A stretch of 64,000 nucleotides of DNA, from the NCBI GenBank assembly GCA_030272155.1, contig CP126206.1, forward strand, positions 1,116,001-1,180,000, read 5' to 3'. Position numbers and translations under genes: made by a program. The first letter of the stretch is position 1. Each line of letters opens with the position of its first letter. The notes below the pieces were generated by a model, which did no database searches, had not been told where the DNA came from, and was given only the letters and a program-made list of their open reading frames with translations. Positions 1 through 53,819 of the stretch are shown one piece after another. Origin of the DNA: Tetradesmus obliquus. Lineage: Eukaryota; Chlorophyta; Chlorophyceae; Sphaeropleales; Scenedesmaceae.

Positions 1-2054
1 GACGGTTTGTGGCTCAACGGTTGCTTTTGTACGCCACGACGTGCACAAGGTAAATATGCTGCTCGGCGGCTCGTGCTGTATTGTGTCCGTGAACGCAGGC
101 GAGCCAGGGTTGACATGCAGATTTGGGCACTGCAAGTGCCATCTAGTGACGTCCCGTGCATGCTCCATTTGCGCATGTTCGGTGCGAGCATTACTGCTGC
201 TGACTTAAGGAATGTAAATGGCATCAGCAGCAGCAGGATGCCTTGGGGTTGCTGGCACTGCTGTCTCCCACAGCAGGTCACCTGGTCTCCATGTTGCTGC
301 AGCTGCTCCCGCTCGTGGTTCCCAGATGTTTGCCGTTTTTCCAGCAGTTTGCTGGTACAGGCAGTGAAGTAAATCAGCTCCTCGTACGTGGCACCAGGCA
401 AGCCCTTTATCTTTTCTGTTACCCAGTGCCCTGCCTTGAGGATCTTGGATGCAGCAAGTGCATCCTCCTCGCTGATGATGACCGGCCGCCCTGACCTGTG
501 CGCATCAGCAATACAGCCAAACTCGCGGAAGTTTTTGTAATGCCGCTCAATAAAGACACTGTGCCTCTCCTTGACACGCTTGTGTACACCGCCACCATGC
601 CTGGAGCGGAACAGGATTGCTGCCTTGTGTGGATCTATCTCCCCAGTGCCAAAGTCGAAGGTGGAAGCGGCGCATACCACCGCCCATTCCCTGGTCTCAG
701 CATCCTTGCGCTGGCTAGAACCCTGGGTTTCAGCAGATTTTGAGGTACCTGCACATAATGACACCATACTTCAGTCATGTGATTTGTGCGCCAGTGTGTA
801 CACTTTGGCGGTACAGGCAGTACAGTACAGCCTTTTGTCAATTTGTCTGACCACCCTGCAGTAGCACGAAAAGCCACCTACGCCTCCCCCTGCGAGCTGA
901 CCCGCAACAAGTTGCCACAGTTATACGCTTGTCTTGGCAAAACCGATAATGTGTGCAAGTGTTGAGGCGCGGGGGTGGCTCTGGCGTGAGCTATATTCTG
1001 GACGTCTGCTGTTATCCTGTTATCTTTGCCGCTGATGCATGTGGCCCGCGGCAAAGCGCTGCATGTTGCCATTTTTCGAAATGGAGATATATTGAGCTGG
1101 TGGTGGTGGGGCATGGATGGGTGGCCATGTCATGTGGTGCTGTGTCACACTGTGGGCTCCTGCTGGCTGAAAGCTGCTGGCTGGCGCTGCAGCCTGCTGC
1201 CGCTGTTTTGATTTGGCATGTCAAAAACTCACTGGCAACTCGTGTTAGCGCCATAGCCATTGACTACATTTGAACTACAAGTAACCATCCACGCAGCTGT
1301 TGCCTCCTCATCGCTGCTTCTGCGATAGTTGTGATACATCTGCTGCTGGTGTCAGCTGCTGGGCGGGCTGGTGCTGAGTTCCAGTCACCAAGGTGAGCAT
1401 GGCTGGGAGCCCGCAGTCCGGTTCGATCAAGCTTGCTGTGAAATAGATTGCTGCACTGTGGTTATGCGCTGCGGAATCTGTGGGGTCTATCGTAATCAAG
1501 TGTCTGTGCGACTGCCTTAATCCCCACTGAGGACGACGCTGGAACTGGGCTATCCTGCATGCTTCTGCTGCGCTGCTGCTGCAACGTAAATACTATATTT
1601 CACTGATCTCACGACCACTCACCGGCTGCTTTGTCCACGTCCATGCTGCAAGGTGCAAGGAAACAGCATTGACACACACGGCAGGAGCAGGACGGTTTGT
1701 GGCTCAACGGTTGCTTTTGTACGCCACGACGTGCACAAGGTAAATATGCTGCTCGGCGGCTCGTGCTGTATTGTGTCCGTGAACGCAGGCGAGCCAGGGT
1801 TGACATGCAGATTTGGGCACTGCAAGTGCCATCTAGTGACGTCCCGTGCATGCTCCATTTGCGCATGTTCGGTGCGAGCATTACTGCTGCTGACTTAAGG
1901 AATGTAAATGGCATCAGCAGCAGCAGGATGCCTTGGGGTTGCTGGCACTGCTGTCTCCCACAGCAGGTCACCTGGTCTCCATGTTGCTGCAGCTGCTCCC
2001 GCTCGTGGTTCCCAGATGTTTGCCGTTTTTCCAGCAGTTTGCTGGTACAGGCAG

Positions 2055-2457
2055 TGAAGTAAATCAGCTCCTCGTACGTGGCACCAGGCAAGCCCTTTAT
2101 CTTTTCTGTTACCCAGTGCCCTGCCTTGAGGATCTTGGATGCAGCAAGTGCATCCTCCTCGCTGATGATGACCGGCCGCCCTGACCTGTGCGCATCAGCA
2201 ATACAGCCAAACTCGCGGAAGTTTTTGTAATGCCGCTCAATAAAGACACTGTGCCTCTCCTTGACACGCTTGTGTACACCGCCACCATGCCTGGAGCGGA
2301 ACAGGATTGCTGCCTTGTGTGGATCTATCTCCCCAGTGCCAAAGTCGAAGGTGGAAGCGGCGCATACCACCGCCCATTCCCTGGTCTCAGCATCCTTGCG
2401 CTGGCTAGAACCCTGGGTTTCAGCAGATTTTGAGGTACCTGCACATAATGACACCAT
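2055..2457 (-). pseudogene. Truncated transposase 5' fragment (representative of 9 copies)
   Basis: This minus-strand open stretch matches residues 1-134 of the transposase encoded at 15614-17855. It includes the basic helix-turn-helix-like DNA-binding region but no catalytic residue. At residue 134 the frame runs into the unrelated segment and stays open for ~148 more codons (to 1609), giving a 282-residue fusion ORF without family resemblance in its second half. Equivalent fragments lie at 365-767, 3759-4161, 5448-5850, 7137-7539, 8826-9228, 10515-10917, 12204-12606 and 13893-14295. Almost no differences separate them; the copy at 7137-7539 carries one Ile-to-Met change. They cannot encode an active transposase. 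A truncated DNA-binding repressor, or a source of small RNA, would be conceivable but nothing here shows it. Confidence 0.8.
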
Positions 2458-3482
2458 ACTTCAGTCATGTGATTTGTGCGCCAGTGTGTACACTTTGGCG
2501 GTACAGGCAGTACAGTACAGCCTTTTGTCAATTTGTCTGACCACCCTGCAGTAGCACGAAAAGCCACCTACGCCTCCCCTGCGAGCTGACCCGCAACAAG
2601 TTGCCACAGTTATACGCTTGTCTTGGCAAAACCGATAATGTGTGCAAGTGTTGAGGCGCGGGGGTGGCTCTGGCGTGAGCTATATTCTGGACGTCTGCTG
2701 TTATCCTGTTATCTTTGCCGCTGATGCATGTGGCCCGCGGCAAAGCGCTGCATGTTGCCATTTTTCGAAATGGAGATATATTGAGCTGGTGGTGGTGGGG
2801 CATGGATGGGTGGCCATGTCATGTGGTGCTGTGTCACACTGTGGGCTCCTGCTGGCTGAAAGCTGCTGGCTGGCGCTGCAGCCTGCTGCCGCTGTTTTGA
2901 TTTGGCATGTCAAAAACTCACTGGCAACTCGTGTTAGCGCCATAGCCATTGACTACATTTGAACTACAAGTAACCATCCACGCAGCTGTTGCCTCCTCAT
3001 CGCTGCTTCTGCGATAGTTGTGATACATCTGCTGCTGGTGTCAGCTGCTGGGCGGGCTGGTGCTGAGTTCCAGTCACCAAGGTGAGCATGGCTGGGAGCC
3101 CGCAGTCCGGTTCGATCAAGCTTGCTGTGAAATAGATTGCTGCACTGTGGTTATGCGCTGCGGAATCTGTGGGGTCTATCGTAATCAAGTGTCTGTGCGA
3201 CTGCCTTAATCCCCACTGAGGACGACGCTGGAACTGGGCTATCCTGCATGCTTCTGCTGCGCTGCTGCTGCAACGTAAATACTATATTTCACTGATCTCA
3301 CGACCACTCACCGGCTGCTTTGTCCACGTCCATGCTGCAAGGTGCAAGGAAACAGCATTGACACACACGGCAGGAGCAGGACGGTTTGTGGCTCAACGGT
3401 TGCTTTTGTACGCCACGACGTGCACAAGGTAAATATGCTGCTCGGCGGCTCGTGCTGTATTGTGTCCGTGAACGCAGGCGAG

Positions 3483-3506
3483 CCAGGGTTGCAACCCTGG
3501 CAATTG
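3483..3506. other. 15-bp palindromic insertion unique to array unit 3
   Basis: Unit 3 carries 15 extra bases (3492-3506) relative to all other units. The first nine, CAACCCTGG, are the exact reverse complement of the adjacent CCAGGGTTG at 3483-3491, making an 18-bp perfect palindrome (3483-3500). The remaining six are the palindrome CAATTG. The insertion adds five codons in the open frames across it and is otherwise silent for structure. Confidence 0.9.
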
Positions 3507-6500
3507 ACATGCAGATTTGGGCACTGCAAGTGCCATCTAGTGACGTCCCGTGCATGCTCCATTTGCGCATGTTCGGTGCGAGCATTACTGCTGCTGACTT
3601 AAGGAATGTAAATGGCATCAGCAGCAGCAGGATGCCTTGGGGTTGCTGGCACTGCTGTCTCCCACAGCAGGTCACCTGGTCTCCATGTTGCTGCAGCTGC
3701 TCCCGCTCGTGGTTCCCAGATGTTTGCCGTTTTTCCAGCAGTTTGCTGGTACAGGCAGTGAAGTAAATCAGCTCCTCGTACGTGGCACCAGGCAAGCCCT
3801 TTATCTTTTCTGTTACCCAGTGCCCTGCCTTGAGGATCTTGGATGCAGCAAGTGCATCCTCCTCGCTGATGATGACCGGCCGCCCTGACCTGTGCGCATC
3901 AGCAATACAGCCAAACTCGCGGAAGTTTTTGTAATGCCGCTCAATAAAGACACTGTGCCTCTCCTTGACACGCTTGTGTACACCGCCACCATGCCTGGAG
4001 CGGAACAGGATTGCTGCCTTGTGTGGATCTATCTCCCCAGTGCCAAAGTCGAAGGTGGAAGCGGCGCATACCACCGCCCATTCCCTGGTCTCAGCATCCT
4101 TGCGCTGGCTAGAACCCTGGGTTTCAGCAGATTTTGAGGTACCTGCACATAATGACACCATACTTCAGTCATGTGATTTGTGCGCCAGTGTGTACACTTT
4201 GGCGGTACAGGCAGTACAGTACAGCCTTTTGTCAATTTGTCTGACCACCCTGCAGTAGCACGAAAAGCCACCTACGCCTCCCCTGCGAGCTGACCCGCAA
4301 CAAGTTGCCACAGTTATACGCTTGTCTTGGCAAAACCGATAATGTGTGCAAGTGTTGAGGCGCGGGGGTGGCTCTGGCGTGAGCTATATTCTGGACGTCT
4401 GCTGTTATCCTGTTATCTTTGCCGCTGATGCATGTGGCCCGCGGCAAAGCGCTGCATGTTGCCATTTTTCGAAATGGAGATATATTGAGCTGGTGGTGGT
4501 GGGGCATGGATGGGTGGCCATGTCATGTGGTGCTGTGTCACACTGTGGGCTCCTGCTGGCTGAAAGCTGCTGGCTGGCGCTGCAGCCTGCTGCCGCTGTT
4601 TTGATTTGGCATGTCAAAAACTCACTGGCAACTCGTGTTAGCGCCATAGCCATTGACTACCTTTGAACTACAAGTAACCATCCACGCAGCTGTTGCCTCC
4701 TCATCGCTGCTTCTGCGATAGTTGTGATACATCTGCTGCTGGTGTCAGCTGCTGGGCGGGCTGGTGCTGAGTTCCAGTCACCAAGGTGAGCATGGCTGGG
4801 AGCCCGCAGTCCGGTTCGATCAAGCTTGCTGTGAAATAGATTGCTGCACTGTGGTTATGCGCTGCGGAATCTGTGGGGTCTATCGTAATCAAGTGTCTGT
4901 GCGACTGCCTTAATCCCCACTGAGGACGACGCTGGAACTGGGCTATCCTGCATGCTTCTGCTGCGCTGCTGCTGCAACGTAAATACTATATTTCACTGAT
5001 CTCACGACCACTCACCGGCTGCTTTGTCCACGTCCATGCTGCAAGGTGCAAGGAAACAGCATTGACACACACGGCAGGAGCAGGACGGTTTGTGGCTCAA
5101 CGGTTGCTTTTGTACGCCACGACGTGCACAAGTTAAATATGCTGCTCGGCGGCTCGTGCTGTATTGTGTCCGTGAACGCAGGCGAGCCAGGGTTGACATG
5201 CAGATTTGGGCACTGCAAGTGCCATCTAGTGACGTCCCGTGCATGCTCCATTTGCGCATGTTCGGTGCGAGCATTACTGCTGCTGACTTAAGGAATGTAA
5301 ATAGCATCAGCAGCAGCAGGATGCCTTGGGGTTGCTGGCACTGCTGTCTCCCACAGCAGGTCACCTGGTCTCCATGTTGCTGCAGCTGCTCCCGCTCGTG
5401 GTTCCCAGATGTTTGCCGTTTTTCCAGCAGTTTGCTGGTACAGGCAGTGAAGTAAATCAGCTCCTCGTACGTGGCACCAGGCAAGCCCTTTATCTTTTCT
5501 GTTACCCAGTGCCCTGCCTTGAGGATCTTGGATGCAGCAAGTGCATCCTCCTCGCTGATGATGACCGGCCGCCCTGACCTGTGCGCATCAGCAATACAGC
5601 CAAACTCGCGGAAGTTTTTGTAATGCCGCTCAATAAAGACACTGTGCCTCTCCTTGACACGCTTGTGTACACCGCCACCATGCCTGGAGCGGAACAGGAT
5701 TGCTGCCTTGTGTGGATCTATCTCCCCAGTGCCAAAGTCGAAGGTGGAAGCGGCGCATACCACCGCCCATTCCCTGGTCTCAGCATCCTTGCGCTGGCTA
5801 GAACCCTGGGTTTCAGCAGATTTTGAGGTACCTGCACATAATGACACCATACTTCAGTCATGTGATTTGTGCGCCAGTGTGTACACTTTGGCGGTACAGG
5901 CAGTACATTACAGCCTTTTGTCAATTTGTCTGACCACCCTGCAGTAGCACGAAAAGCCACCTACGCCTCCCCTGCGAGCTGACCCGCAACAAGTTGCCAC
6001 AGTTATACGCTTGTCTTGGCAAAACCGATAATGTGTGCAAGTGTTGAGGCGCGGGGGTGGCTCTGGCGTGAGCTATATTCTGGACGTCTGCTGTTATCCT
6101 GTTATCTTTGCCGCTGATGCATGTGGCCCGCGGCAAAGCGCTGCATGTTGCCATTTTTCGAAATGGAGATATATTGAGCTGGTGGTGGTGGGGCATGGAT
6201 GGGTGGCCATGTCATGTGGTGCTGTGTCACACTGTGGGCTCCTGCTGGCTGAAAGCTGCTGGCTGGCGCTGCAGCCTGCTGCCGCTGTTTTGATTTGGCA
6301 TGTCAAAAACTCACTGGCAACTCGTGTTAGCGCCATAGCCATTGACTACATTTGAACTACAAGTAACCATCCACGCAGCTGTTGCCTCCTCATCGCTGCT
6401 TCTGCGATAGTTGTGATACATCTGCTGCTGGTGTCAGCTGCTGGGCGGGCTGGTGCTGAGTTCCAGTCACCAAGGTGAGCATGGCTGGGAGCCCGCAGTC

Positions 6501-9500
6501 CGGTTCGATCAAGCTTGCTGTGAAATAGATTGCTGCACTGTGGTTATGCGCTGCGGAATCTGTGGGGTCTATCGTAATCAAGTGTCTGTGCGACTGCCTT
6601 AATCCCCACTGAGGACGACGCTGGAACTGGGCTATCCTGCATGCTTCTGCTGCGCTGCTGCTGCAACGTAAATACTATATTTCACTGATCTCACGACCAC
6701 TCACCGGCTGCTTTGTCCACGTCCATGCTGCAAGGTGCAAGGAAACAGCATTGACACACACGGCAGGAGCAGGACGGTTTGTGGCTCAACGGTTGCTTTT
6801 GTACGCCACGACGTGCACAAGTTAAATATGCTGCTCGGCGGCTCGTGCTGTATTGTGTCCGTGAACGCAGGCGAGCCAGGGTTGACATGCAGATTTGGGC
6901 ACTGCAAGTGCCATCTAGTGACGTCCCGTGCATGCTCCATTTGCGCATGTTCGGTGCGAGCATTACTGCTGCTGACTTAAGGAATGTAAATAGCATCAGC
7001 AGCAGCAGGATGCCTTGGGGTTGCTGGCACTGCTGTCTCCCACAGCAGGTCACCTGGTCTCCATGTTGCTGCAGCTGCTCCCGCTCGTGGTTCCCAGATG
7101 TTTGCCGTTTTTCCAGCAGTTTGCTGGTACAGGCAGTGAAGTAAATCAGCTCCTCGTACGTGGCACCAGGCAAGCCCTTCATCTTTTCTGTTACCCAGTG
7201 CCCTGCCTTGAGGATCTTGGATGCAGCAAGTGCATCCTCCTCGCTGATGATGACCGGCCGCCCTGACCTGTGCGCATCAGCAATACAGCCAAACTCGCGG
7301 AAGTTTTTGTAATGCCGCTCAATAAAGACACTGTGCCTCTCCTTGACACGCTTGTGTACACCGCCACCATGCCTGGAGCGGAACAGGATTGCTGCCTTGT
7401 GTGGATCTATCTCCCCAGTGCCAAAGTCGAAGGTGGAAGCGGCGCATACCACCGCCCATTCCCTGGTCTCAGCATCCTTGCGCTGGCTAGAACCCTGGGT
7501 TTCAGCAGATTTTGAGGTACCTGCACATAATGACACCATACTTCAGTCATGTGATTTGTGCGCCAGTGTGTACACTTTGGCGGTACAGGCAGTACATTAC
7601 AGCCTTTTGTCAATTTGTCTGACCACCCTGCAGTAGCACGAAAAGCCACCTACGCCTCCCCTGCGAGCTGACCCGCAACAAGTTGCCACAGTTATACGCT
7701 TGTCTTGGCAAAACCGATAATGTGTGCAAGTGTTGAGGCGCGGGGGTGGCTCTGGCGTGAGCTATATTCTGGACGTCTGCTGTTATCCTGTTATCTTTGC
7801 CGCTGATGCATGTGGCCCGCGGCAAAGCGCTGCATGTTGCCATTTTTCGAAATGGAGATATATTGAGCTGGTGGTGGTGGGGCATGGATGGGTGGCCATG
7901 TCATGTGGTGCTGTGTCACACTGTGGGCTCCTGCTGGCTGAAAGCTGCTGGCTGGCGCTGCAGCCTGCTGCCGCTGTTTTGATTTGGCATGTCAAAAACT
8001 CACTGGCAACTCGTGTTAGCGCCATAGCCATTGACTACATTTGAACTACAAGTAACCATCCACGCAGCTGTTGCCTCCTCATCGCTGCTTCTGCGATAGT
8101 TGTGATACATCTGCTGCTGGTGTCAGCTGCTGGGCGGGCTGGTGCTGAGTTCCAGTCACCAAGGTGAGCATGGCTGGGAGCCCGCAGTCCGGTTCGATCA
8201 AGCTTGCTGTGAAATAGATTGCTGCACTGTGGTTATGCGCTGCGGAATCTGTGGGGTCTATCGTAATCAAGTGTCTGTGCGACTGCCTTAATCCCCACTG
8301 AGGACGACGCTGGAACTGGGCTATCCTGCATGCTTCTGCTGCGCTGCTGCTGCAACGTAAATACTATATTTCACTGATCTCACGACCACTCACCGGCTGC
8401 TTTGTCCACGTCCATGCTGCAAGGTGCAAGGAAACAGCATTGACACACACGGCAGGAGCAGGACGGTTTGTGGCTCAACGGTTGCTTTTGTACGCCACGA
8501 CGTGCACAAGGTAAATATGCTGCTCGGCGGCTCGTGCTGTATTGTGTCCGTGAACGCAGGCGAGCCAGGGTTGACATGCAGATTTGGGCACTGCAAGTGC
8601 CATCTAGTGACGTCCCGTGCATGCTCCATTTGCGCATGTTCGGTGCGAGCATTACTGCTGCTGACTTAAGGAATGTAAATAGCATCAGCAGCAGCAGGAT
8701 GCCTTGGGGTTGCTGGCACTGCTGTCTCCCACAGCAGGTCACCTGGTCTCCATGTTGCTGCAGCTGCTCCCGCTCGTGGTTCCCAGATGTTTGCCGTTTT
8801 TCCAGCAGTTTGCTGGTACAGGCAGTGAAGTAAATCAGCTCCTCGTACGTGGCACCAGGCAAGCCCTTTATCTTTTCTGTTACCCAGTGCCCTGCCTTGA
8901 GGATCTTGGATGCAGCAAGTGCATCCTCCTCGCTGATGATGACCGGCCGCCCTGACCTGTGCGCATCAGCAATACAGCCAAACTCGCGGAAGTTTTTGTA
9001 ATGCCGCTCAATAAAGACACTGTGCCTCTCCTTGACACGCTTGTGTACACCGCCACCATGCCTGGAGCGGAACAGGATTGCTGCCTTGTGTGGATCTATC
9101 TCCCCAGTGCCAAAGTCGAAGGTGGAAGCGGCGCATACCACCGCCCATTCCCTGGTCTCAGCATCCTTGCGCTGGCTAGAACCCTGGGTTTCAGCAGATT
9201 TTGAGGTACCTGCACATAATGACACCATACTTCAGTCATGTGATTTGTGCGCCAGTGTGTACACTTTGGCGGTACAGGCAGTACAGTACAGCCTTTTGTC
9301 AATTTGTCTGACCACCCTGCAGTAGCACGAAAAGCCACCTACGCCTCCCCTGCGAGCTGACCCGCAACAAGTTGCCACAGTTATACGCTTGTCTTGGCAA
9401 AACCGATAATGTGTGCAAGTGTTGAGGCGCGGGGGTGGCTCTGGCGTGAGCTATATTCTGGACGTCTGCTGTTATCCTGTTATCTTTGCCGCTGATGCAT

Positions 9501-12500
9501 GTGGCCCGCGGCAAAGCGCTGCATGTTGCCATTTTTCGAAATGGAGATATATTGAGCTGGTGGTGGTGGGGCATGGATGGGTGGCCATGTCATGTGGTGC
9601 TGTGTCACACTGTGGGCTCCTGCTGGCTGAAAGCTGCTGGCTGGCGCTGCAGCCTGCTGCCGCTGTTTTGATTTGGCATGTCAAAAACTCACTGGCAACT
9701 CGTGTTAGCGCCATAGCCATTGACTACCTTTGAACTACAAGTAACCATCCACGCAGCTGTTGCCTCCTCATCGCTGCTTCTGCGATAGTTGTGATACATC
9801 TGCTGCTGGTGTCAGCTGCTGGGCGGGCTGGTGCTGAGTTCCAGTCACCAAGGTGAGCATGGCTGGGAGCCCGCAGTCCGGTTCGATCAAGCTTGCTGTG
9901 AAATAGATTGCTGCACTGTGGTTATGCGCTGCGGAATCTGTGGGGTCTATCGTAATCAAGTGTCTGTGCGACTGCCTTAATCCCCACTGAGGACGACGCT
10001 GGAACTGGGCTATCCTGCATGCTTCTGCTGCGCTGCTGCTGCAACGTAAATACTATATTTCACTGATCTCACGACCACTCACCGGCTGCTTTGTCCACGT
10101 CCATGCTGCAAGGTGCAAGGAAACAGCATTGACACACACGGCAGGAGCAGGACGGTTTGTGGCTCAACGGTTGCTTTTGTACGCCACGACGTGCACAAGT
10201 TAAATATGCTGCTCGGCGGCTCGTGCTGTATTGTGTCCGTGAACGCAGGCGAGCCAGGGTTGACATGCAGATTTGGGCACTGCAAGTGCCATCTAGTGAC
10301 GTCCCGTGCATGCTCCATTTGCGCATGTTCGGTGCGAGCATTACTGCTGCTGACTTAAGGAATGTAAATAGCATCAGCAGCAGCAGGATGCCTTGGGGTT
10401 GCTGGCACTGCTGTCTCCCACAGCAGGTCACCTGGTCTCCATGTTGCTGCAGCTGCTCCCGCTCGTGGTTCCCAGATGTTTGCCGTTTTTCCAGCAGTTT
10501 GCTGGTACAGGCAGTGAAGTAAATCAGCTCCTCGTACGTGGCACCAGGCAAGCCCTTTATCTTTTCTGTTACCCAGTGCCCTGCCTTGAGGATCTTGGAT
10601 GCAGCAAGTGCATCCTCCTCGCTGATGATGACCGGCCGCCCTGACCTGTGCGCATCAGCAATACAGCCAAACTCGCGGAAGTTTTTGTAATGCCGCTCAA
10701 TAAAGACACTGTGCCTCTCCTTGACACGCTTGTGTACACCGCCACCATGCCTGGAGCGGAACAGGATTGCTGCCTTGTGTGGATCTATCTCCCCAGTGCC
10801 AAAGTCGAAGGTGGAAGCGGCGCATACCACCGCCCATTCCCTGGTCTCAGCATCCTTGCGCTGGCTAGAACCCTGGGTTTCAGCAGATTTTGAGGTACCT
10901 GCACATAATGACACCATACTTCAGTCATGTGATTTGTGCGCCAGTGTGTACACTTTGGCGGTACAGGCAGTACAGTACAGCCTTTTGTCAATTTGTCTGA
11001 CCACCCTGCAGTAGCACGAAAAGCCACCTACGCCTCCCCTGCGAGCTGACCCGCAACAAGTTGCCACAGTTATACGCTTGTCTTGGCAAAACCGATAATG
11101 TGTGCAAGTGTTGAGGCGCGGGGGTGGCTCTGGCGTGAGCTATATTCTGGACGTCTGCTGTTATCCTGTTATCTTTGCCGCTGATGCATGTGGCCCGCGG
11201 CAAAGCGCTGCATGTTGCCATTTTTCGAAATGGAGATATATTGAGCTGGTGGTGGTGGGGCATGGATGGGTGGCCATGTCATGTGGTGCTGTGTCACACT
11301 GTGGGCTCCTGCTGGCTGAAAGCTGCTGGCTGGCGCTGCAGCCTGCTGCCGCTGTTTTGATTTGGCATGTCAAAAACTCACTGGCAACTCGTGTTAGCGC
11401 CATAGCCATTGACTACATTTGAACTACAAGTAACCATCCACGCAGCTGTTGCCTCCTCATCGCTGCTTCTGCGATAGTTGTGATACATCTGCTGCTGGTG
11501 TCAGCTGCTGGGCGGGCTGGTGCTGAGTTCCAGTCACCAAGGTGAGCATGGCTGGGAGCCCGCAGTCCGGTTCGATCAAGCTTGCTGTGAAATAGATTGC
11601 TGCACTGTGGTTATGCGCTGCGGAATCTGTGGGGTCTATCGTAATCAAGTGTCTGTGCGACTGCCTTAATCCCCACTGAGGACGACGCTGGAACTGGGCT
11701 ATCCTGCATGCTTCTGCTGCGCTGCTGCTGCAACGTAAATACTATATTTCACTGATCTCACGACCACTCACCGGCTGCTTTGTCCACGTCCATGCTGCAA
11801 GGTGCAAGGAAACAGCATTGACACACACGGCAGGAGCAGGACGGTTTGTGGCTCAACGGTTGCTTTTGTACGCCACGACGTGCACAAGGTAAATATGCTG
11901 CTCGGCGGCTCGTGCTGTATTGTGTCCGTGAACGCAGGCGAGCCAGGGTTGACATGCAGATTTGGGCACTGCAAGTGCCATCTAGTGACGTCCCGTGCAT
12001 GCTCCATTTGCGCATGTTCGGTGCGAGCATTACTGCTGCTGACTTAAGGAATGTAAATAGCATCAGCAGCAGCAGGATGCCTTGGGGTTGCTGGCACTGC
12101 TGTCTCCCACAGCAGGTCACCTGGTCTCCATGTTGCTGCAGCTGCTCCCGCTCGTGGTTCCCAGATGTTTGCCGTTTTTCCAGCAGTTTGCTGGTACAGG
12201 CAGTGAAGTAAATCAGCTCCTCGTACGTGGCACCAGGCAAGCCCTTTATCTTTTCTGTTACCCAGTGCCCTGCCTTGAGGATCTTGGATGCAGCAAGTGC
12301 ATCCTCCTCGCTGATGATGACCGGCCGCCCTGACCTGTGCGCATCAGCAATACAGCCAAACTCGCGGAAGTTTTTGTAATGCCGCTCAATAAAGACACTG
12401 TGCCTCTCCTTGACACGCTTGTGTACACCGCCACCATGCCTGGAGCGGAACAGGATTGCTGCCTTGTGTGGATCTATCTCCCCAGTGCCAAAGTCGAAGG

Positions 12501-13528
12501 TGGAAGCGGCGCATACCACCGCCCATTCCCTGGTCTCAGCATCCTTGCGCTGGCTAGAACCCTGGGTTTCAGCAGATTTTGAGGTACCTGCACATAATGA
12601 CACCATACTTCAGTCATGTGATTTGTGCGCCAGTGTGTACACTTTGGCGGTACAGGCAGTACAGTACAGCCTTTTGTCAATTTGTCTGACCACCCTGCAG
12701 TAGCACGAAAAGCCACCTACGCCTCCCCTGCGAGCTGACCCGCAACAAGTTGCCACAGTTATACGCTTGTCTTGGCAAAACCGATAATGTGTGCAAGTGT
12801 TGAGGCGCGGGGGTGGCTCTGGCGTGAGCTATATTCTGGACGTCTGCTGTTATCCTGTTATCTTTGCCGCTGATGCATGTGGCCCGCGGCAAAGCGCTGC
12901 ATGTTGCCATTTTTCGAAATGGAGATATATTGAGCTGGTGGTGGTGGGGCATGGATGGGTGGCCATGTCATGTGGTGCTGTGTCACACTGTGGGCTCCTG
13001 CTGGCTGAAAGCTGCTGGCTGGCGCTGCAGCCTGCTGCCGCTGTTTTGATTTGGCATGTCAAAAACTCACTGGCAACTCGTGTTAGCGCCATAGCCATTG
13101 ACTACATTTGAACTACAAGTAACCATCCACGCAGCTGTTGCCTCCTCATCGCTGCTTCTGCGATAGTTGTGATACATCTGCTGCTGGTGTCAGCTGCTGG
13201 GCGGGCTGGTGCTGAGTTCCAGTCACCAAGGTGAGCATGGCTGGGAGCCCGCAGTCCGGTTCGATCAAGCTTGCTGTGAAATAGATTGCTGCACTGTGGT
13301 TATGCGCTGCGGAATCTGTGGGGTCTATCGTAATCAAGTGTCTGTGCGACTGCCTTAATCCCCACTGAGGACGACGCTGGAACTGGGCTATCCTGCATGC
13401 TTCTGCTGCGCTGCTGCTGCAACGTAAATACTATATTTCACTGATCTCACGACCACTCACCGGCTGCTTTGTCCACGTCCATGCTGCAAGGTGCAAGGAA
13501 ACAGCATTGACACACACGGCAGGAGCAG

Positions 13529-14905
13529 GACGGTTTGTGGCTCAACGGTTGCTTTTGTACGCCACGACGTGCACAAGGTAAATATGCTGCTCGGCGGCTC
13601 GTGCTGTATTGTGTCCGTGAACGCAGGCGAGCCAGGGTTGACATGCAGATTTGGGCACTGCAAGTGCCATCTAGTGACGTCCCGTGCATGCTCCATTTGC
13701 GCATGTTCGGTGCGAGCATTACTGCTGCTGACTTAAGGAATGTAAATAGCATCAGCAGCAGCAGGATGCCTTGGGGTTGCTGGCACTGCTGTCTCCCACA
13801 GCAGGTCACCTGGTCTCCATGTTGCTGCAGCTGCTCCCGCTCGTGGTTCCCAGATGTTTGCCGTTTTTCCAGCAGTTTGCTGGTACAGGCAGTGAAGTAA
13901 ATCAGCTCCTCGTACGTGGCACCAGGCAAGCCCTTTATCTTTTCTGTTACCCAGTGCCCTGCCTTGAGGATCTTGGATGCAGCAAGTGCATCCTCCTCGC
14001 TGATGATGACCGGCCGCCCTGACCTGTGCGCATCAGCAATACAGCCAAACTCGCGGAAGTTTTTGTAATGCCGCTCAATAAAGACACTGTGCCTCTCCTT
14101 GACACGCTTGTGTACACCGCCACCATGCCTGGAGCGGAACAGGATTGCTGCCTTGTGTGGATCTATCTCCCCAGTGCCAAAGTCGAAGGTGGAAGCGGCG
14201 CATACCACCGCCCATTCCCTGGTCTCAGCATCCTTGCGCTGGCTAGAACCCTGGGTTTCAGCAGATTTTGAGGTACCTGCACATAATGACACCATACTTC
14301 AGTCATGTGATTTGTGCGCCAGTGTGTACACTTTGGCGGTACAGGCAGTACAGTACAGCCTTTTGTCAATTTGTCTGACCACCCTGCGTGAGGACGACGC
14401 TGGAACTGGGCTATCCTGCATGCTTCTGCTGCGCTGCTGCTGCAACGTAAATACTATATTTCACTGATCTCACGACCACTCACCGGCTGCTTTGTCCACG
14501 TCCATGCTGCAAGGTGCAAGGAAACAGCATTGACACACACGGCAGGAGCAGGACGGTTTGTGGCTCAACGGTTGCTTTTGTACGCCACGACGTGCACAAG
14601 GTAAATATGCTGCTCGGCGGCTCGTGCTGTATTGTGTCCGTGAACGCAGGCGAGCCAGGGTTGACATGCAGATTTGGGCACTGCAAGTGCCATCTAGTGA
14701 CGTCCCGTGCATGCTCCATTTGCGCATGTTCGGTGCGAGCATTACTGCTGCTGACTTAAGGAATGTAAATAGCATCAGCAGCAGCAGGATGCCTTGGGGT
14801 TGCTGGCACTGCTGTCTCCCACAGCAGGTCACCTGGTCTCCATGTTGCTGCAGCTGCTCCCGCTCGTGGTTCCCAGATGTTTGCCGTTTTTCCAGCAGTT
14901 TGCTA
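13529..14905. repeat. Deleted unit 9 and truncated unit 10 at the array end
   Basis: Unit 9 lacks 666 bp: the sequence jumps near 14387-14392 from the transposon leader (just before the position equal to 2550) directly to the start of the unrelated segment. Unit 10 stops at 14905, at the internal junction where the unrelated segment would meet transposase sequence in other units. Thus the array ends exactly on a segment boundary. This suggests that 14391-14905 plus the following unique DNA is the ancestral context of the unrelated segment, before it was joined to transposon sequence. Confidence 0.7.
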
Positions 14906-15613
14906 TGTGCGGATCTGCTTGAAGGCGTGTGTCGAGTAACTAGGCGCTGTGTCGAGAGCTTGTCGGTGAATGCGTGAGTTTGCGAAACTGGTGCAGCCTG
15001 ACAGCTTTGTATTGCATGTAAGCAGTGCGTATCATCAAAGCAACATTTGAATGTGTCCTGCTTTGCCAATGAGGCAGTGACATAGTTATGCCTGTTACCG
15101 CTGTCTGCAGAACACAACCACTCGGGAGGCGACTTCAATTTAACTCCAGCAATCCATCAGACACCCCAGGATGCCACGTCCCAGGTAAATAAACACGCTT
15201 TCAACGTTTGCAGCTCAGTCACACACAACAAGCAGCTCCAAGCCAGGTGCTGTTGATGTGCAGTGACTGCTCAGCTCCTCAGCACTGTCAAGCACTACCA
15301 AAACACAGCAACATGCAGTGGTGCATGCTGCATCATTTGAAACACATCAGCATCAATACATTATACAGGAAACCAGCAGCAATAGTGGCTGCTGAGCTGT
15401 AAGGGTAGCCACATGCAAATGCAGCCACCAACCCTGCAGCAGTGGCAAACCGTAGCACACAGCACTGCTGCTGGTCACATCAAGCAGTAGCAGCAGCAGC
15501 AGCTGCTGCCCAAGTCAATAATTCTCATGCCTATAAAAATAAGAAATATAAAGAATGAAGCAAATGACACACAAAGCTGGCAGTGTCACCAGCTGGCAGC
15601 TGACTGCTGCAGC
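14906..15613. other. Unique DNA between array and transposase stop
   Basis: This ~700-bp stretch separates the array from the transposase stop codon. It contains no gene that I can support; a minus-strand open frame running from 15138 into the array has no recognisable features. It must include the left end of the transposon. I looked for an inverted counterpart of the right end (CAGTGGGGATTAAGGCAGTC on the minus strand) and did not find a convincing one, so the left boundary is undefined. Confidence 0.5.
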
Positions 15614-17855
15614 CTACATGCTGCCGCGTGGACCCCAGTTGCCGCCGCTGCCCACACACACGCGCCCGCTCTCCTGGTCTGTCCACTGCTGACCAGCTGG
15701 GGAGCTGATGATCTGCCACAGCAGTGTCAGGCCTGCCACATCCTTTGCCACAGAGTACTTGGGCACCCCTGTTGTGAACTGCCGCCGCACAATCTTGCGC
15801 AACTCAGCTCCGGTTATAACTTGATGGTTGAGGCTGTAGCACTCGTTGCGCACCCTAGGCTTGCCACCACCAAACTGGTGCTCTATTCCCCTGTTGATGT
15901 CTGGGCTGTAGTTGGGGATCTTGAGGTTGTGGTGTGCTGGCATGCTGATGTTGGGCTGGCCCTCCCTCTTCAGGCAGGTGACGTCGATGTGTGCCTGGAT
16001 GCTCGCGTTGTCAATAGACAGGTAAGGCCATTGCCCAGTCTTCTTTTGGAACTTGGTGCAGACAATGTGCAGCAGGACCTCCATCTCCTCCTCGGTTGTT
16101 GACTTAGCAAGCTCGTTCTCCTTTGTCTGCAATGGCATGCAGGTGCAGCAAGGGGTGGTGGTGGCGGTGGGCGCTGTCAGGCACCAAGCGCATGAACAAG
16201 GGGCTGGATTTGGACTGCAATGACACTCCTGTGTATCAGCCAGCAGGACACCTACCTGTTAGAATCACTAGCTCAGAGAGTTCAGTGCAGCTGTTCTGGA
16301 GGCTGCACAAGAGGGGTGGCAGTGCCAGGCAGCAGTGCGGGCACTACCGCTACTGCACGGCACACACAGTGCACAAGCAGAGCAGCCTGTGGTGCGCCTT
16401 CTGCAGCTATGATGCAGCAGCATGGAAGAGTGAGAAACTAGCAGTCATGCCAGCATGTGAACAGCAGTTCATTGTGAACTTCCTGGTTCCTGCAGGCTGG
16501 GACAGGCAGTACTGCAGGCAGGTGGCGCCAGACTGGTGGTCTTGGCCTGCAGACTTCTGGAACTTTGAGCTAGACATCTACATCCAGATAGATGGCAGCA
16601 GCCACTGGTATGGCATGCATGGTGTGCCAGCTGAGACAGTGCAGGAACGCGACATGATGTTCACCCAGGTAGCTGTAAGCAAGGGTGCGCGTGTGGTGCG
16701 GGTGCATGCAGCAGATGCTTGCAACTATGCGGCATTGCATGCAGCAGTTGCTGCTGCTGCTTCTGGGCAGAAGGTGGTGTTGAGCCCAGCATATGCCACC
16801 ACAAACATCACATGGCAGTCACAAGCGCTGCCCTATGTGGAAGTGCTGCAGCAGCAGTTGTCACTTTGTTACTGTTATGACAACTGGCATGGTAACATCT
16901 GCTTTTGAATAACAAATAACATACAATCACTCACCCAGTACTCCTGCTTCCCTGTCATCTCACTGCCGTCCTGCAGCTTGTTTGCGCGCCGGTCAATGTC
17001 AGTGGTGCCGCTGCACTCCTCATACAGCACCACGCCGTTGGCGTCCTCGTACTGGCCATGTGCTGTGACAGCCAGGAAGAAGTGCACCTTTATTGGTTTG
17101 ATGGTTTTGTCAGATATGAAGCACACGTCGCTGGGCCGTGCTGCTCCTGCGCTGCAGTACACCTGCACACTGTGCTGGCTGAGCCCATGCAGCACAAATG
17201 TGGACTCGTCACAGAACACGATGTGGTACATCATGGAGGGATCCGCCGCAACACGCGCCAGCATCGTCAGGCACCAGCGAATCCTGTCCTGCAGCTCTGC
17301 ATATGAGAACTTGTGGTGTGACCTCAGCGTGATGCGGATGAGATCTGGATCCACCGCGTGCATGCGTTTCAGCAGCTTGCTGGGTGAGACGCCGTACTTC
17401 TGCTGAATGGCCTGCAGCTGTGGGCTCTTGAGCAGTGCCTCGTCCATGGTGCTGAAGTAAATCAGCTCCTCGTACGTGGCACCAGGCAAGCCCTTTATCT
17501 TTTCTGTTACCCAGTGCCCTGCCTTGAGGATCTTGGATGCAGCAAGTGCATCCTCCTCGCTGATGATGACCGGCCGCCCTGACCTGTGCGCATCAGCAAT
17601 ACAGCCAAACTCGCGGAAGTTTTTGTAATGCCGCTCAATAAAGACACTGTGCCTCTCCTTGACACGCTTGTGTACACCGCCACCATGCCTGGAGCGGAAC
17701 AGGATTGCTGCCTTGTGTGGATCTATCTCCCCAGTGCCAAAGTCGAAGGTGGAAGCGGCGCATACCACCGCCCATTCCCTGGTCTCAGCATCCTTGCGCT
17801 GGCTAGAACCCTGGGTTTCAGCAGATTTTGAGGTACCTGCACATAATGACACCAT
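15614..17855 (-). CDS. Tc1/mariner-like DDE transposase, two exons
   Basis: Exon 1 is 17855-16935 (307 codons) and exon 2 is 16126-15614 (170 codons plus TAG), giving 477 residues. The 808-bp intron has donor TGG|GTGAGT and acceptor TTGCAG|ACA, phase 0. Residues ~55-115 form a basic helix-turn-helix-like region (HADHRSGRP-type linker, here with AHRSGRPVII). The catalytic core shows the first Asp in HIVFCDESTF (D216), the second in LSIDNAS (D346) and the terminal block PNYSPDINRGIEHQF, which corresponds to the Tc1 signature YSPDLNPIE (E389). Splicing is required to bring the first Asp together with the other two. About 42 residues separate the second Asp and the Glu, longer than the usual Tc1 (34) spacing. 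The role is cut-and-paste transposition in the nucleus. All key residues are present and there is no stop, so it may be active. Confidence 0.8.
16132..16908 (+). CDS. Intron-nested Vsr/DUF559-like PD-(D/E)XK nuclease
   Basis: This 258-codon ORF lies antisense inside the transposase intron (16127-16934): its ATG is 5 bp from one intron end and its stop 26 bp from the other. Residues ~69-91 hold a Cys/His cluster (C69, C75, H78, H81, C88, C91) that could bind zinc. Residues ~105-195 resemble the Vsr/DUF559 endonuclease-like fold: a Glu in an early helix (E110), the strand pair FELDIYI-QIDGSSHW (D148, D154, H158), then a charged helix with QERD (171-174) and the closing strand KGARVVRVH (184-192), as in DUF559 proteins. 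The likely activity is DNA cleavage or nicking. Whether it serves the transposon, the intron or neither is unknown. The alternative is a nuclease gene that was simply captured. The family call rests on motif order seen by eye. Confidence 0.6.
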   Translation: MACRCSKGWWWRWALSGTKRMNKGLDLDCNDTPVYQPAGHLPVRITSSESSVQLFWRLHKRGGSARQQCGHYRYCTAHTVHKQSSLWCAFCSYDAAAWKSEKLAVMPACEQQFIVNFLVPAGWDRQYCRQVAPDWWSWPADFWNFELDIYIQIDGSSHWYGMHGVPAETVQERDMMFTQVAVSKGARVVRVHAADACNYAALHAAVAAAASGQKVVLSPAYATTNITWQSQALPYVEVLQQQLSLCYCYDNWHGNICF

Positions 17856-18617
17856 ACTTCAGTCATGTGATTTGTGCGCCAGTGTGTACACTTTGGCGGT
17901 ACAGGCAGTACAGTACAGCCTTTTGTCAATTTGTCTGACCACCCTGCAGTAGCACGAAAAGCCACCTACGCCTCCCCTGCGAGCTGACCCGCAACAAGTT
18001 GCCACAGTTATACGCTTGTCTTGGCAAAACCGATAATGTGTGCAAGTGTTGAGGCGCGGGGGTGGCTCTGGCGTGAGCTATATTCTGGACGTCTGCTGTT
18101 ATCCTGTTATCTTTGCCGCTGATGCATGTGGCCCGCGGCAAAGCGCTGCATGTTGCCATTTTTCGAAATGGAGATATATTGAGCTGGTGGTGGTGGGGCA
18201 TGGATGGGTGGCCATGTCATGTGGTGCTGTGTCACACTGTGGGCTCCTGCTGGCTGAAAGCTGCTGGCTGGCGCTGCAGCCTGCTGCCGCTGTTTTGATT
18301 TGGCATGTCAAAAACTCACTGGCAACTCGTGTTAGCGCCATAGCCATTGACTACATTTGAACTACAAGTAACCATCCACGCAGCTGTTGCCTCCTCATCG
18401 CTGCTTCTGCGATAGTTGTGATACATCTGCTGCTGGTGTCAGCTGCTGGGCGGGCTGGTGCTGAGTTCCAGTCACCAAGGTGAGCATGGCTGGGAGCCCG
18501 CAGTCCGGTTCGATCAAGCTTGCTGTGAAATAGATTGCTGCACTGTGGTTATGCGCTGCGGAATCTGTGGGGTCTATCGTAATCAAGTGTCTGTGCGACT
18601 GCCTTAATCCCCACTGT

Positions 18618-18689: not shown

Positions 18690-19711
18690 ATGGATGATCA
18701 AGAAGGTCCGGGTGCTGCAGCAGAGCCTGTCAACGAGGAGGCTCAGGCGGTTCCCGGAGCATGGGGCATCGGCGTTAGCCAGGAAGTGCGTCCCGAAGGA
18801 ACAAGCTACAAAGTCCGCGTGTGTGTGCGTGGCGAGGCTCGCTATCTCGACAGGTGGGTGGGACCGGTTTGTCAGGCTATGCTGATCCTGCAGTATTTTG
18901 CATGCCAAACATCGCTCGACATCACGTTCAACCATTTAAACATTATTTATAGCTGTTTTGATCGGGTGCCAAAGAGCATGTCGTTCGTCACCTTGCAGTG
19001 CATTAATCTCGGTGGTCCGGCTGCGTTCATCAGTGCAAACCGTGTATTGTGCATACGACTATATACCTGAAACCCTCGGATATCTTCAAATTGCCGTGTA
19101 CCGTGGTTGAGTCAGTAGTGTGACCACTCACTCACCGGTGTTTGGCGATCTACTCGGCTGAGGGCAGCTTCCCTCTTCTTGATCACCTGTGCATAATTTT
19201 ATACACGTATAATGAGCTATACGCCATCCGAACAGGTGCTTGCTGTCGTCATGTCGCGCCACCTGCTGCTGCTGCTCTTCCTCACCACGGCACTGCATGT
19301 CAATCTGCACTCTGCAGGTTCACTGACGTGGTGACAGCCAGACTGGCTTACGATACCACCATCCTTCACTACAGGTCACATGCAAAGACAAACTATGATC
19401 CCACCCTGTATCAGCTGACAGACCAGGCAGCGCTTTCCAAGATTGAGACCTTCCACCGCAAGGTTGCAGAACTGGACCAAATCAGCGGCCAAAAGCGCGC
19501 TCTGTACGAAACAGATGAAGCACGCGCGCAAAAACTGCTGCACACAGAAAAGGCGCTGCTGCTACTGCAGCTGCAGCAGCAGCAGCCGCAGTGCAGCCCA
19601 CCTACCAGCAGCAGCAGCTGCTCCAGCGGCAGCTGCACCAGCAGCTGCTTCATCAACAGCAGCAGCAGCACCTGCTCCAGCAGCTGCTCCAGCAGCTGCT
19701 CCAGCAGCTGC

Positions 19712-19766
<55 letters not shown>

Positions 19767-19916
19767 CCTGCAGCGGGTGGACAGTGGCCTCACAGGGCTC
19801 ACATCCATGTTCAACAGCTGCCAGCAGGATGCAGCCGACCCTGATGTGCTAATGAGTGACAATGGGTTCATGGGTGATGGCAGCTTCATGCAGCTGCTTG
19901 CGCAGACACCTGCTGC

Positions 19917-19970
<54 letters not shown>

Positions 19971-20464
19971 AGGCAGCATGCTGCTGCCAAGCTACACCCA
20001 GGGGCTTGAGGACACCCGCAGTGAGCCAGCCAGCCAACTTCTTGAAGGGCCTTCTGCTGCAGCAGCAGCAGCTGCCGCAGCCGGAGGCCTCTATCGGAGC
20101 GGCAGCAGCAACGCCGCAGAGGAGATGAGTGCAGCGGAGGCTGCTGCTGGTGTGGCACGCATGTGTGTTGGCTACAGGCCCTCACCACCCGCCCCGATGT
20201 TTCCATCTTCACCAGCACAGGACAGGCAGCACCTGGCTGCTGCTGCTGCTGCTAGTGCAGCTGCAGTGCCAGCTACCCCAGCAGCAGCTTTCATGCTGCC
20301 TGCTGCCCAGCCGGCGCTAGAGAGGAGCAACAGCAGCGTCAGCAACACCAGCGGCGGCCGCCGCTGCTGCCGCTTCTCGCCGAGGGAACAGCCGCGCATG
20401 TCAGCAGCAGCAGCGGCAGCTGCAGCGCCAGCTGGCTTTGGCGGGGCTGTGAACCCCGTTGCAG

Positions 20465-20496
<32 letters not shown>

Positions 20497-20819
20497 CCAT
20501 CAGGCATGGCAGGTGTGTATGCTACGCAGCAGCAGCTGCCTCAGGCAACCGCAGCACCCGCAGCATTCCAATCTATGTGCAATAACATGGTGCCTGCAGC
20601 TGGCTGCAACTACATGCCATCCTCGAGTGCTGCAAACTACATGGCAGCACCAAGTGCTGCAAACTACATGGCAGCACCAGATGCTGCAAACTACATGGCA
20701 GCACCAGATGCTGCGAACTACATGCCAACCCCAAGTGCGTCAAACTACCTGGCAGCACCAAGTGCTCTGCAAGGCTGGCAACGGCCAGCCAGCCCTGCAC
20801 AGCACAAGCGGCGCAGGCT

Positions 20820-20866
<47 letters not shown>

Positions 20867-20975
20867 TTGCGCCAGTGCCTCTGATGAGTAATGCTGAATG
20901 GGACATGCTGCTGCAGCAGGTGGTGCTGCCGCCCGGCCTGCCTGACATCCAGCAGCAGACGCAGCAAGTGCAGAT

Positions 20976-21023
<48 letters not shown>

Positions 21024-21567
21024 GCCTGTGCTGCCACCTTGGCTGCAACCAGCTGCAGGCTCAATGGCGCCAGCTGGCATGGCGGCTCCAGCAGCAGCAG
21101 CAGCAGCAGCACAGCCCGCCTCTCCTACTGTGGGCAATGCAGCTGCAGCTGCTGACATGCCTGTCAGTGTTGCTGGAGCCTACAGGCGCAGCGATGTGCT
21201 GGCATTCATAGGCGTCAGCATCGCACACCTGCTGCAGCTGTCAGTCCAACTGACTCCAACCAGAGACAGCAGCGCTGCATTTGGCGAAGCATGTGCCTGG
21301 ATGGCTAGAACACGCCACCAGCTCGAGTCCGCTGCTGCAGCAGATATCATGAACAGCAGCAGCCAGCAGCAGCAGTGTGGCAGCAGCTGCGCCCTGCAGC
21401 TGCTGCAGCAGCTGACTGCACTGTTCTCAGATGAGCTGCAGGGTGCTGGTGGCGCAGCGATGCAGAGTGCTGCTGGCGTGCTGCTTGAGCGGTCTGAACT
21501 ACTTGGTCTGGCAGAGAATCTGGTGGTTGCGCTAGCGGCTTTCAACCGCATCCTGGTAGAGCCTGGC

Positions 21568-21598
<31 letters not shown>

Positions 21599-21717
21599 GC
21601 TATGTAACAAGCAGCGAGACCAGCCGATGGCTGGCTGGCCTAGAGCAGCTGGCTGCGCGTGGCAGTGCAGTGGATGGCTCCGTGCTGAAGCTGTGCAGGA
21701 AGCTGGTCGGCGGCTGA
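18690..21717 (+). CDS. AP2/ERF-like Gln/Ala-rich transcription factor
   Basis: Exon 1 is 18690-18853; a 464-bp intron follows (donor ACAG|GTGGGT, acceptor TCTGCAG|G). Joining restores an AP2-like segment: exon 1 supplies SYKVRVCVRGEARYLDR and exon 2 RFTDVVTARLAYDTTILHYR then AKTNYDP. This fits the AP2 pattern of a beta-sheet ending in YLG-F, an AARAYD helix and a terminal NFP-like motif. The usual first strand (YRGV) and Trp are not evident, so the domain is divergent. A predicted coiled coil follows (to ~19590), then long polyGln and polyAla tracts, five copies of a nine-residue NYMAAP repeat, and a helical C-terminus ending at TGA 21715-21717. The AP2 frame and the polyGln frame differ by one register near 19590. 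A non-consensus intron 19463-19596 would join them in frame; otherwise it is a frameshift. Such proteins bind DNA in the nucleus. Confidence 0.6.
20629..20763 (+). repeat. Five 27-bp coding repeats (9-residue NYMAAP motif)
   Basis: Units start at 20629, 20656, 20683, 20710 and 20737 and encode variants of AANYMAAPS or AANYMAAPD. The last two are diverged (PTPS and SASNYLAAPS). They lie between the polyAla- and polyGln-rich parts of the AP2-like protein, probably as a disordered linker. Confidence 0.9.
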
Positions 21718-52900: not shown

Positions 52901-53819
52901 GGTGGTGCTGTGGCCCGGCTGGGTGGTGCTGTGGCCCGGCTGGGTGGTGCTGTGGCCCAGCTGGGTGGTGCTGTGGCCCGGCTGGGTGGTGCTGTGGCCC
53001 AGCTGGGTGGTGCTGTGGCCCGGCTGGGTGGTGCTGTGGCCCGGCTGGGTGGTGCTGTGGCCCGGCTGGGTGGTGCTGTGGCCCGGCTGGGTGGTGCTGT
53101 GGCCCAGCTGGGTGGTGCTGTGGCCCGGCTGGGTGGTGCTGTGGCCCGGCTGGGTGGTGCTGTGGCCCAGCTGGGTGGTGCTGTGGCCCGGCTGGGTGGT
53201 GCTGTGGCCCGGCTAGGTGGTTGGAGGGCTGTGGAATGGCTGAGTGATGCAGCGCAGACATTGCAGTGAGCTGCAGCAGCCTCTTCTGACTCACATGCAG
53301 CAGAGAACAAGGCAGCACTGCTACTGCAGGCAACAGGTGTAGTATGGGGCGGCGCAAAGGGAACGCAACACGTTCTGTGCTCTGCCCCAGGCACTGACAG
53401 AGCAGTTGACAAACCGAGGCTGACATGTGCTGTGTATTCCTCTGTGTGCGTTGCCATGCAGGCTGCAAGCCAGGTTACTACTTATCCTCAGACAGCTGCA
53501 CGATTTGCCCCAAGGGTTCGTACTGCCTAGGCGGCACTGCAGAGCAGTCAGTAGCAACCGGGTGTGGCCCTAACCTCAACACAATAAACTTCGGGTCGAG
53601 GGAGAGCAAAGACTGCGGTGGGTCTGGTGTATTCTCAGCATTGCCGGCCACTTTCAGGCGATGCTGTTGTACACTGTTGCTTGGATGTGTGGAACCAGTG
53701 CTGCAGTAGATTGCAGCACGGCCACATCAACAGCAGCTAACGCAGCCATAGCAGCTGTGCAGCTCGTCTGAGCACAAGCTGGGTGCGGTACGACAGCAGC
53801 CGCCGCCGCCGCCGCCGCC

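Follow-up and report, generated by a model that had tools for sequence, protein, structure and literature searches.

Transposons of the IS630-Tc1-mariner (ITm) group have 5'-CAG tips, leave a 3-nt footprint upon excision, and duplicate a TA target site. A second relevant system is KolobokP, which has been described as unique among transposon lineages. Unequal exchange between its long terminal direct repeats (LTDRs) after nuclease breaks was proposed by its authors, who regarded the role of the nuclease as speculative (Kojima & Bao 2022, Mob DNA 13:24, PMC9587614). Here, we describe an element from Tetradesmus obliquus (assembly GCA_030272155.1; 104.66 Mb, 17 contigs), which was analyzed in a 64,000-bp stretch of contig CP126206.1 (C16:1116001-1180000). 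This stretch is called the window and is numbered from its first letter. As described from its sequence, the element is very probably composite-like and contains two genes, a DDE-type transposase gene and an ORF (open reading frame) for a predicted nuclease, which is antisense within an intron of the transposase gene. We regard it as probable that this is an autonomous DNA transposon, in which the transposase mobilizes the whole element or a lone LTDR, and nuclease-driven unequal exchange multiplies the units.

The transposase gene is located on the minus strand. Exon 1 (17855-16935; 307 codons) encodes an N-terminal helical region and the first catalytic residue, D216. Exon 2 (16126-15614; 170 codons plus stop) encodes the catalytic residues D346 and E389 and a motif, SPDxNxxIE. 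A preliminary description of this DNA had proposed that the mariner-like transposase was interrupted by an 808-bp intron with a GTGAGT donor and a TTGCAG acceptor in phase 0. This was confirmed by the coordinates of the putative spliceosomal intron (16934-16127) and by conceptual translation of the joined exons, which gave 477 amino acids with no internal stop. As also proposed there, splicing would be required to assemble the catalytic triad, because exon 1 supplies only D216, and exon 2 the other two residues. The 258-codon ORF was likewise found where expected: on the plus strand, it begins with ATG at 16132, ends with a stop codon at 16906-16908, and lies wholly within the predicted intron (16132-16908).

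Next, related copies were analyzed throughout the genome. A second copy of the window element, at C16:2.89 Mb, shared 99.55% identity with it across 4228 bp, and a single mismatch separated the two nuclease ORFs. The genome search with the nuclease yielded at least 147 scored matches of at least 274 candidates, none of the 147 having an internal stop; at least 2 belonged to the family of the window element (family A), and at least 145, at 29-31% identity, to a second family (family B). Exon 1, antisense nuclease, and exon 2 were found by tblastn, in that order, in all 42 complete loci, which represent 32 distinct copies after removal of overlaps: two from A, 29 from B, and a single one from a third family, B2. 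The transposase-based search yielded the same 2 family-A copies, 59 exon-1 copies at C16:1.03-1.13 Mb that are truncated and have neither nuclease nor exon 2, a B2 array on C4, and a relic on C7. In the locus taken from the C4 array (L064), the nuclease was present in both exon-1 units, one of which was clipped by the end of the locus. The relic (C7:4742000-4746500) retains only ~90 amino acids of the transposase N-terminus, which are 66% identical to those of the window's, and represents a further family or a decayed copy.

The assignment of the transposase was examined using the spliced proteins. The B2 protein matched Pfam DDE_3 at 28.9 bits (cut-off 28.6), the B protein scored 24.0 bits, which is below the cut-off, and no DDE_3 match was found in Pfam for the family-A protein. 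A profile of the three transposases matched SETMAR (E 0.004) and Mos1 (E 0.5); for SETMAR, the match consisted of two segments flanking the splice junction, each weak by itself (i-E 5.7 and 7.7). The best Foldseek match of the exon-1 model in the PDB was also Mos1 (E 0.018), which is suggestive at most, given the low confidence of the model (pLDDT 58, mostly below 50 in the second half). The catalytic spacing was DD42E in family A, compared to DD38E in the other two families. The DDE_3 domain in B2, the D/D/E residues, and the weak SETMAR and Mos1 similarity support the mariner-type transposase proposed earlier, and the protein is best called ITm-like, of the DDE type.

Database homologs of the transposase (n = 18) covered at most 67% of the query, corresponding to exon 1, and included no spliced form. 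This speaks for an explanation in which the 808-bp segment would not represent an intron, and the transposase gene would be broken or would encode two separate polypeptides. However, the GT-AG borders occur at the homologous place in families A, B, and B2 (GTGAGT and CAG, phase 0). In alignment A3, which combines 16 of these homologs with exon 1 of the window element, V is located exactly at the donor in 16 of 16 homologs (13 VS, 2 VR, and 1 VG), which fits reading-through of a GTG-AGN donor (GTGAGT to VS). Furthermore, dN/dS (the ratio of nonsynonymous to synonymous substitution rates) between B and B2 was 0.33 for exon 1 and 0.36 for exon 2, indicating that both halves of the transposase are under purifying selection. 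We consider a broken or divided gene very improbable. As a separate candidate, a group I or group II intron with a homing nuclease was rejected; no Rfam family reached the gathering threshold anywhere in the window, and the borders are GT-AG. No tRNA was found in the window either.

We then analyzed the product of the antisense ORF. The 258-amino-acid protein is a predicted nuclease resembling the Vsr/EDxHD group, of which it may be a member. Its D141/H158 pair (17 residues apart) is invariant in all 17 proteins of alignment A4, as is D174, and E110 is present in at least 90% of them; the reference pair in Vsr, D51/H69, is 18 residues apart. The protein has the E, D, H, D active-site pattern of EDxHD/Vsr, with the residue order taken from the family name, except for D174 in the genomic B2 copies (see below). 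Its predicted fold may be Vsr-like, alongside competing structure matches. A Vsr/DUF559-like nuclease, as suggested in the preliminary description, is supported. A-type nucleases gave no meaningful match in Pfam, NCBIfam, or PADLOC. The nuclease profile had no credible match among PDB sequences, the best being a phage baseplate protein (E 0.06). No viral or prokaryotic relative was confirmed among 37 + 23 pattern stretches, in a search that possibly excluded records very near this genome.

Two alternative explanations of the ORF were weighed against this assignment. It could be a chance open frame in a GC-rich intron, and one of 2000 dinucleotide-shuffled versions of this intron did yield an ORF of at least 250 amino acids, the longest shuffled ORF having 260. 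This explanation is already contradicted by conservation, and we give it virtually no weight: homologs exist in the three families and among database proteins, the active-site residues are invariant, and the scored genomic matches are stop-free. Between B and B2, the nuclease frame was the sole stop-free frame of the six, and over the 158-codon core its dN/dS (0.48) was the lowest (next 0.59). For the whole nuclease, dN/dS was 0.515 (261 codons; bootstrap 95% 0.37-0.72), and it was less clear for the N-terminal part (0.63; 0.39-1.16). Alternatively, the ORF could encode a nucleic-acid-binding protein that has a Vsr fold but does not cleave, as in RAP/FASTKD proteins, such as one that regulates its own transcript. 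The conservation of D141/H158, D174, and E110 argues against this, since FASTKD4 has N in place of H, and Pfam RAP was unmatched by 9 members of A1 at E ≤10, in a scan with filters that discard most weak matches. A noncleaving protein appears improbable to us.

The conserved arrangement further bears on the relationship between nuclease and transposon. In the preliminary description, the nuclease was considered as a possible selfish gene, using the intron as a haven. A homing-type nuclease would then have invaded the transposase intron and would hitchhike without serving the transposon. The EDxHD nucleases do include homing enzymes (PMC3943268), and an intron would be a harmless haven. The small number of nuclease changes within family B, with ratios of 0.36-0.95 and one pair without synonymous changes, fits such a hitchhiker. 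The same applies to the count of 42 loci, which is not unbiased: L001-L032 were retrieved via the intron or the nuclease, L066-L069 were picked from those matches, and nuclease-less copies could therefore be missed. In addition, N replaces D174 in both genomic B2 nuclease copies that were read. On the other side, the nuclease has the same position and orientation in three families, of which A shares merely 28-29% identity with B and B2 in the spliced transposases, and the arrangement also occurs in loci found via the transposase (the 2 A copies and the 2 B2 units). A comparable pairing of transposase and endonuclease is known from KolobokP (PMC9587614). The presence of the nuclease in the same intron in every complete copy of three divergent families, albeit in a biased sample, suggests that it is a fixed part of the element, and we consider a separate hitchhiking nuclease unlikely. 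The second arrangement envisaged earlier, a two-protein transposon with antisense genes, is the one supported; the larger composite-like unit, with its direct repeats, arrays, and excision-like scars, had been overlooked.

This larger unit was delimited by comparison of the copies, using the term LTDR as adopted from KolobokP. The copy at C16:2.89 Mb (L063) has a 3556-bp core between 670-bp direct repeats, which are 100% identical to each other, giving a total of 4896 bp. In the window, the internal region (INT; 3556 bp) extends from 14391 to 17946 and is followed by the right LTDR (17947-18616; 670 bp, CAGTAG...CCACTG), the same repeat that is present on both flanks of L063. Ordinary terminal inverted repeats (TIRs) were ruled out; none was found in L063, whose terminal repeats have the direct orientation. 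A similar layout was observed in four family-B monomers (L066-L069), with an LTDR of ~724 bp (716-728), a core of ~3.56 kb, and a total of 4987-5006 bp. The two LTDRs of one element were 100%, 99.9%, 99.7%, and 95.7% identical in L068, L067, L069, and L066, respectively. The family-B LTDR has inverted tips measuring 25 bp or slightly more (CAGCTGGGCATGG...) at its ends, and that of family A has CAGT/ACTG only; the LTDRs appear to be non-coding. With up to 2 mismatches, the family-B tip occurred 177 times in forward and 181 times in reverse orientation, and the reversed control 0 times. All five elements end in CA...TG. The 3 bp outside the outer tips matched in four of the five (GTT, AAC, ATC, and TCA), the fifth having TAT/TCT; the probability of matches in four of five by chance is ~3e-7 under an assumed base composition.

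The left LTDR of the window element is missing. Instead, CGTG is present at 14387-14390 (CACCCTG-CGTG-AGGACG), which is probably an LTDR excision footprint comparable to 3-nt CAG/CTG scars in family B. Those scars were observed at four LTDR-less junctions, all in the C12 array, which read ACAGTCT-CTG-AGACC (L025 and L027) and ACAGTCT-CAG-AGACC (L029 and L031). Each junction keeps 3 nt of the LTDR tip, and the four may go back to two events. Positions 1-14386 of the window belong to a separate tandem array, of which they form the right end. Its unit is an internally deleted derivative consisting of LTDR and INT, with a period of ~1689 bp. The array spans ~100 kb (C16:1.03-1.13 Mb) and contains the 59 truncated copies in nearly identical units; loss of the equivalent of 14905-17452 has deprived these units of the nuclease and of most transposase sequence. 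Of the two-gene copies of family A, the window's is at the right end of this array, and the other is at C16:2.89 Mb.

Family B is arranged in 12 arrays of the form (LTDR-core)n, which hold 127 of the 147 nuclease matches. Among the 115 neighbor intervals, 84 measured 4280-4282 bp, corresponding to a core plus one LTDR, 23 measured 3560-3564 bp, corresponding to no LTDR, and 8 were located at changes of orientation (5039-5041 and 3520-3523 bp). The paired orientation-change intervals sum to two normal units, so that, judging from spacing alone, the core seems to have been inverted in place. Such cores were observed within regular arrays at C3:7.157-7.216 Mb, C5:4.68-4.71 Mb, and C16:0.198-0.222 Mb. 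The core of monomer L069 (the same copy as L010) is also reversed relative to both LTDRs. For the 28 loci L005-L032, the relative orientation was that of L068 in 23 and opposite in 1, and 4 had no adjacent LTDR. The B2 array (C4:128-222 kb) showed 25 exon-1 matches at intervals of 3590 bp (15) or 4310 bp (9), a difference of 720 bp.

Based on these arrangements, we propose the following mechanism for the autonomous two-gene transposon. The spliced transposase would cut at the CAG tips and move either the full element or a single LTDR. Both tips are present on each LTDR, so that one LTDR could leave by itself, thereby stranding the core. The nuclease would break the DNA at specific sites, either within the LTDR, at the scar, or where two tips abut, and repair of these breaks by unequal exchange between LTDRs would rebuild and amplify LTDR-INT units, offsetting the loss of LTDRs. 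For this role of the nuclease in provoking unequal exchange, we see the chances as evenly balanced. Placement antisense in the intron would keep both reading frames free of overlap, and convergent transcription would hold down one product during production of the other, so that expression of transposase and nuclease may be antagonistic. In a broader form, composite-like transposons with direct repeats and a homing-type endonuclease would have originated from unrelated components on two or more occasions among eukaryotes, and the antisense intronic nuclease would be an obligate module that drives tandem amplification and LTDR re-attachment and is counter-regulated with the transposase; for this proposal, too, we would put the case for and against at about par.

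Outside the element, the window contains a nearby plus-strand ORF of 708 codons (19591-21717), which is very rich in Gln/Ala runs (CAG repeats). Two adjoining tandem repeats were also found, one of 254 bp (50869-51743; 3.4 copies) and one of 21 bp (51775-53221; 69 copies, 97% matches).

We finally compared the element with the known systems. It resembles ITm transposons in its CAG tips and 3-nt footprint, as well as in the DDE_3 domain (above the cut-off in B2), the DD38E/DD42E spacing, and the weak SETMAR/Mos1 similarity. In contrast, it shows a 3-bp target-site duplication (TSD) without TA, its termini are long direct repeats rather than simple TIRs, and it has a second gene and forms composite arrays; because of the 3-bp duplication without TA, it was not filed as Tc1/mariner. 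As in bacterial composite transposons, mobile units flank a core, and the flank or the whole can move, although here the flanks appear non-coding and the transposase is in the core. Compared to the EDxHD/Vsr endonucleases Vsr and I-Bth0305I, the predicted nuclease has an N-terminal extension that may contain a zinc site (H71-C75-C88-C91), as well as a Q152-x-D-G motif. Moreover, those enzymes are encoded by a bacterial repair gene and a phage intron, whereas the gene for this one lies within a spliceosomal-type intron of a eukaryotic transposon.

The preliminary description had known of no described case of this arrangement. Among the titles and abstract openings surveyed, neither a composite-like transposon of the ITm or Vsr kind nor a nuclease antisense in a transposase intron was found, which for the intron nesting agrees with that statement. 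For the architecture, KolobokP, the only close parallel found in this survey, is in print (PMC9587614). The element also offers an example of one transposon gene that is conserved on the antisense strand within the spliceosomal-type intron of its partner gene. The recurrence of similar repeats, arrays, missing-LTDR junctions, and an opposite-strand endonuclease with an unrelated transposase suggests a functional bond between the nuclease and the long direct repeats. Induced unequal crossover would thereby be a general, testable route from a DNA transposon to long tandem arrays.

Both systems have the plan LTDR-INT-LTDR with short TIRs within each LTDR (25 bp in family B), and the LTDR of one KolobokP group is ~660 bp, close to 670 and ~724 bp here. 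Both also form multimers with shared LTDRs and INT-INT junctions from which the LTDR is missing, the LTDR being thought to be excised alone in KolobokP, and both combine a DDE transposase with an endonuclease on the complementary strand. TSDs are 3-5 bp by family in KolobokP and 3 bp here. The parts themselves, however, are different. Kolobok transposases have C/DxxH between the second D and E, and a CCHC zinc finger; no C/DxxH and no CxxC were found in the three spliced transposases here. The KolobokP nuclease is of the His-Me finger type (I-PpoI-like) and is encoded downstream of the transposase, in contrast to the Vsr/EDxHD-like nuclease within the transposase intron. KolobokP tips are 5'-RR...YY-3', compared to 5'-CA...TG in all five elements here, and its INT-INT junctions lose 3-4 bp of INT, whereas those observed here keep 3 nt of the LTDR tip. 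Furthermore, some INT copies seem to be inverted in place here, and the host is not an animal. Because the architecture of KolobokP is built here from an unrelated transposase and nuclease, the two elements are apparently convergent.
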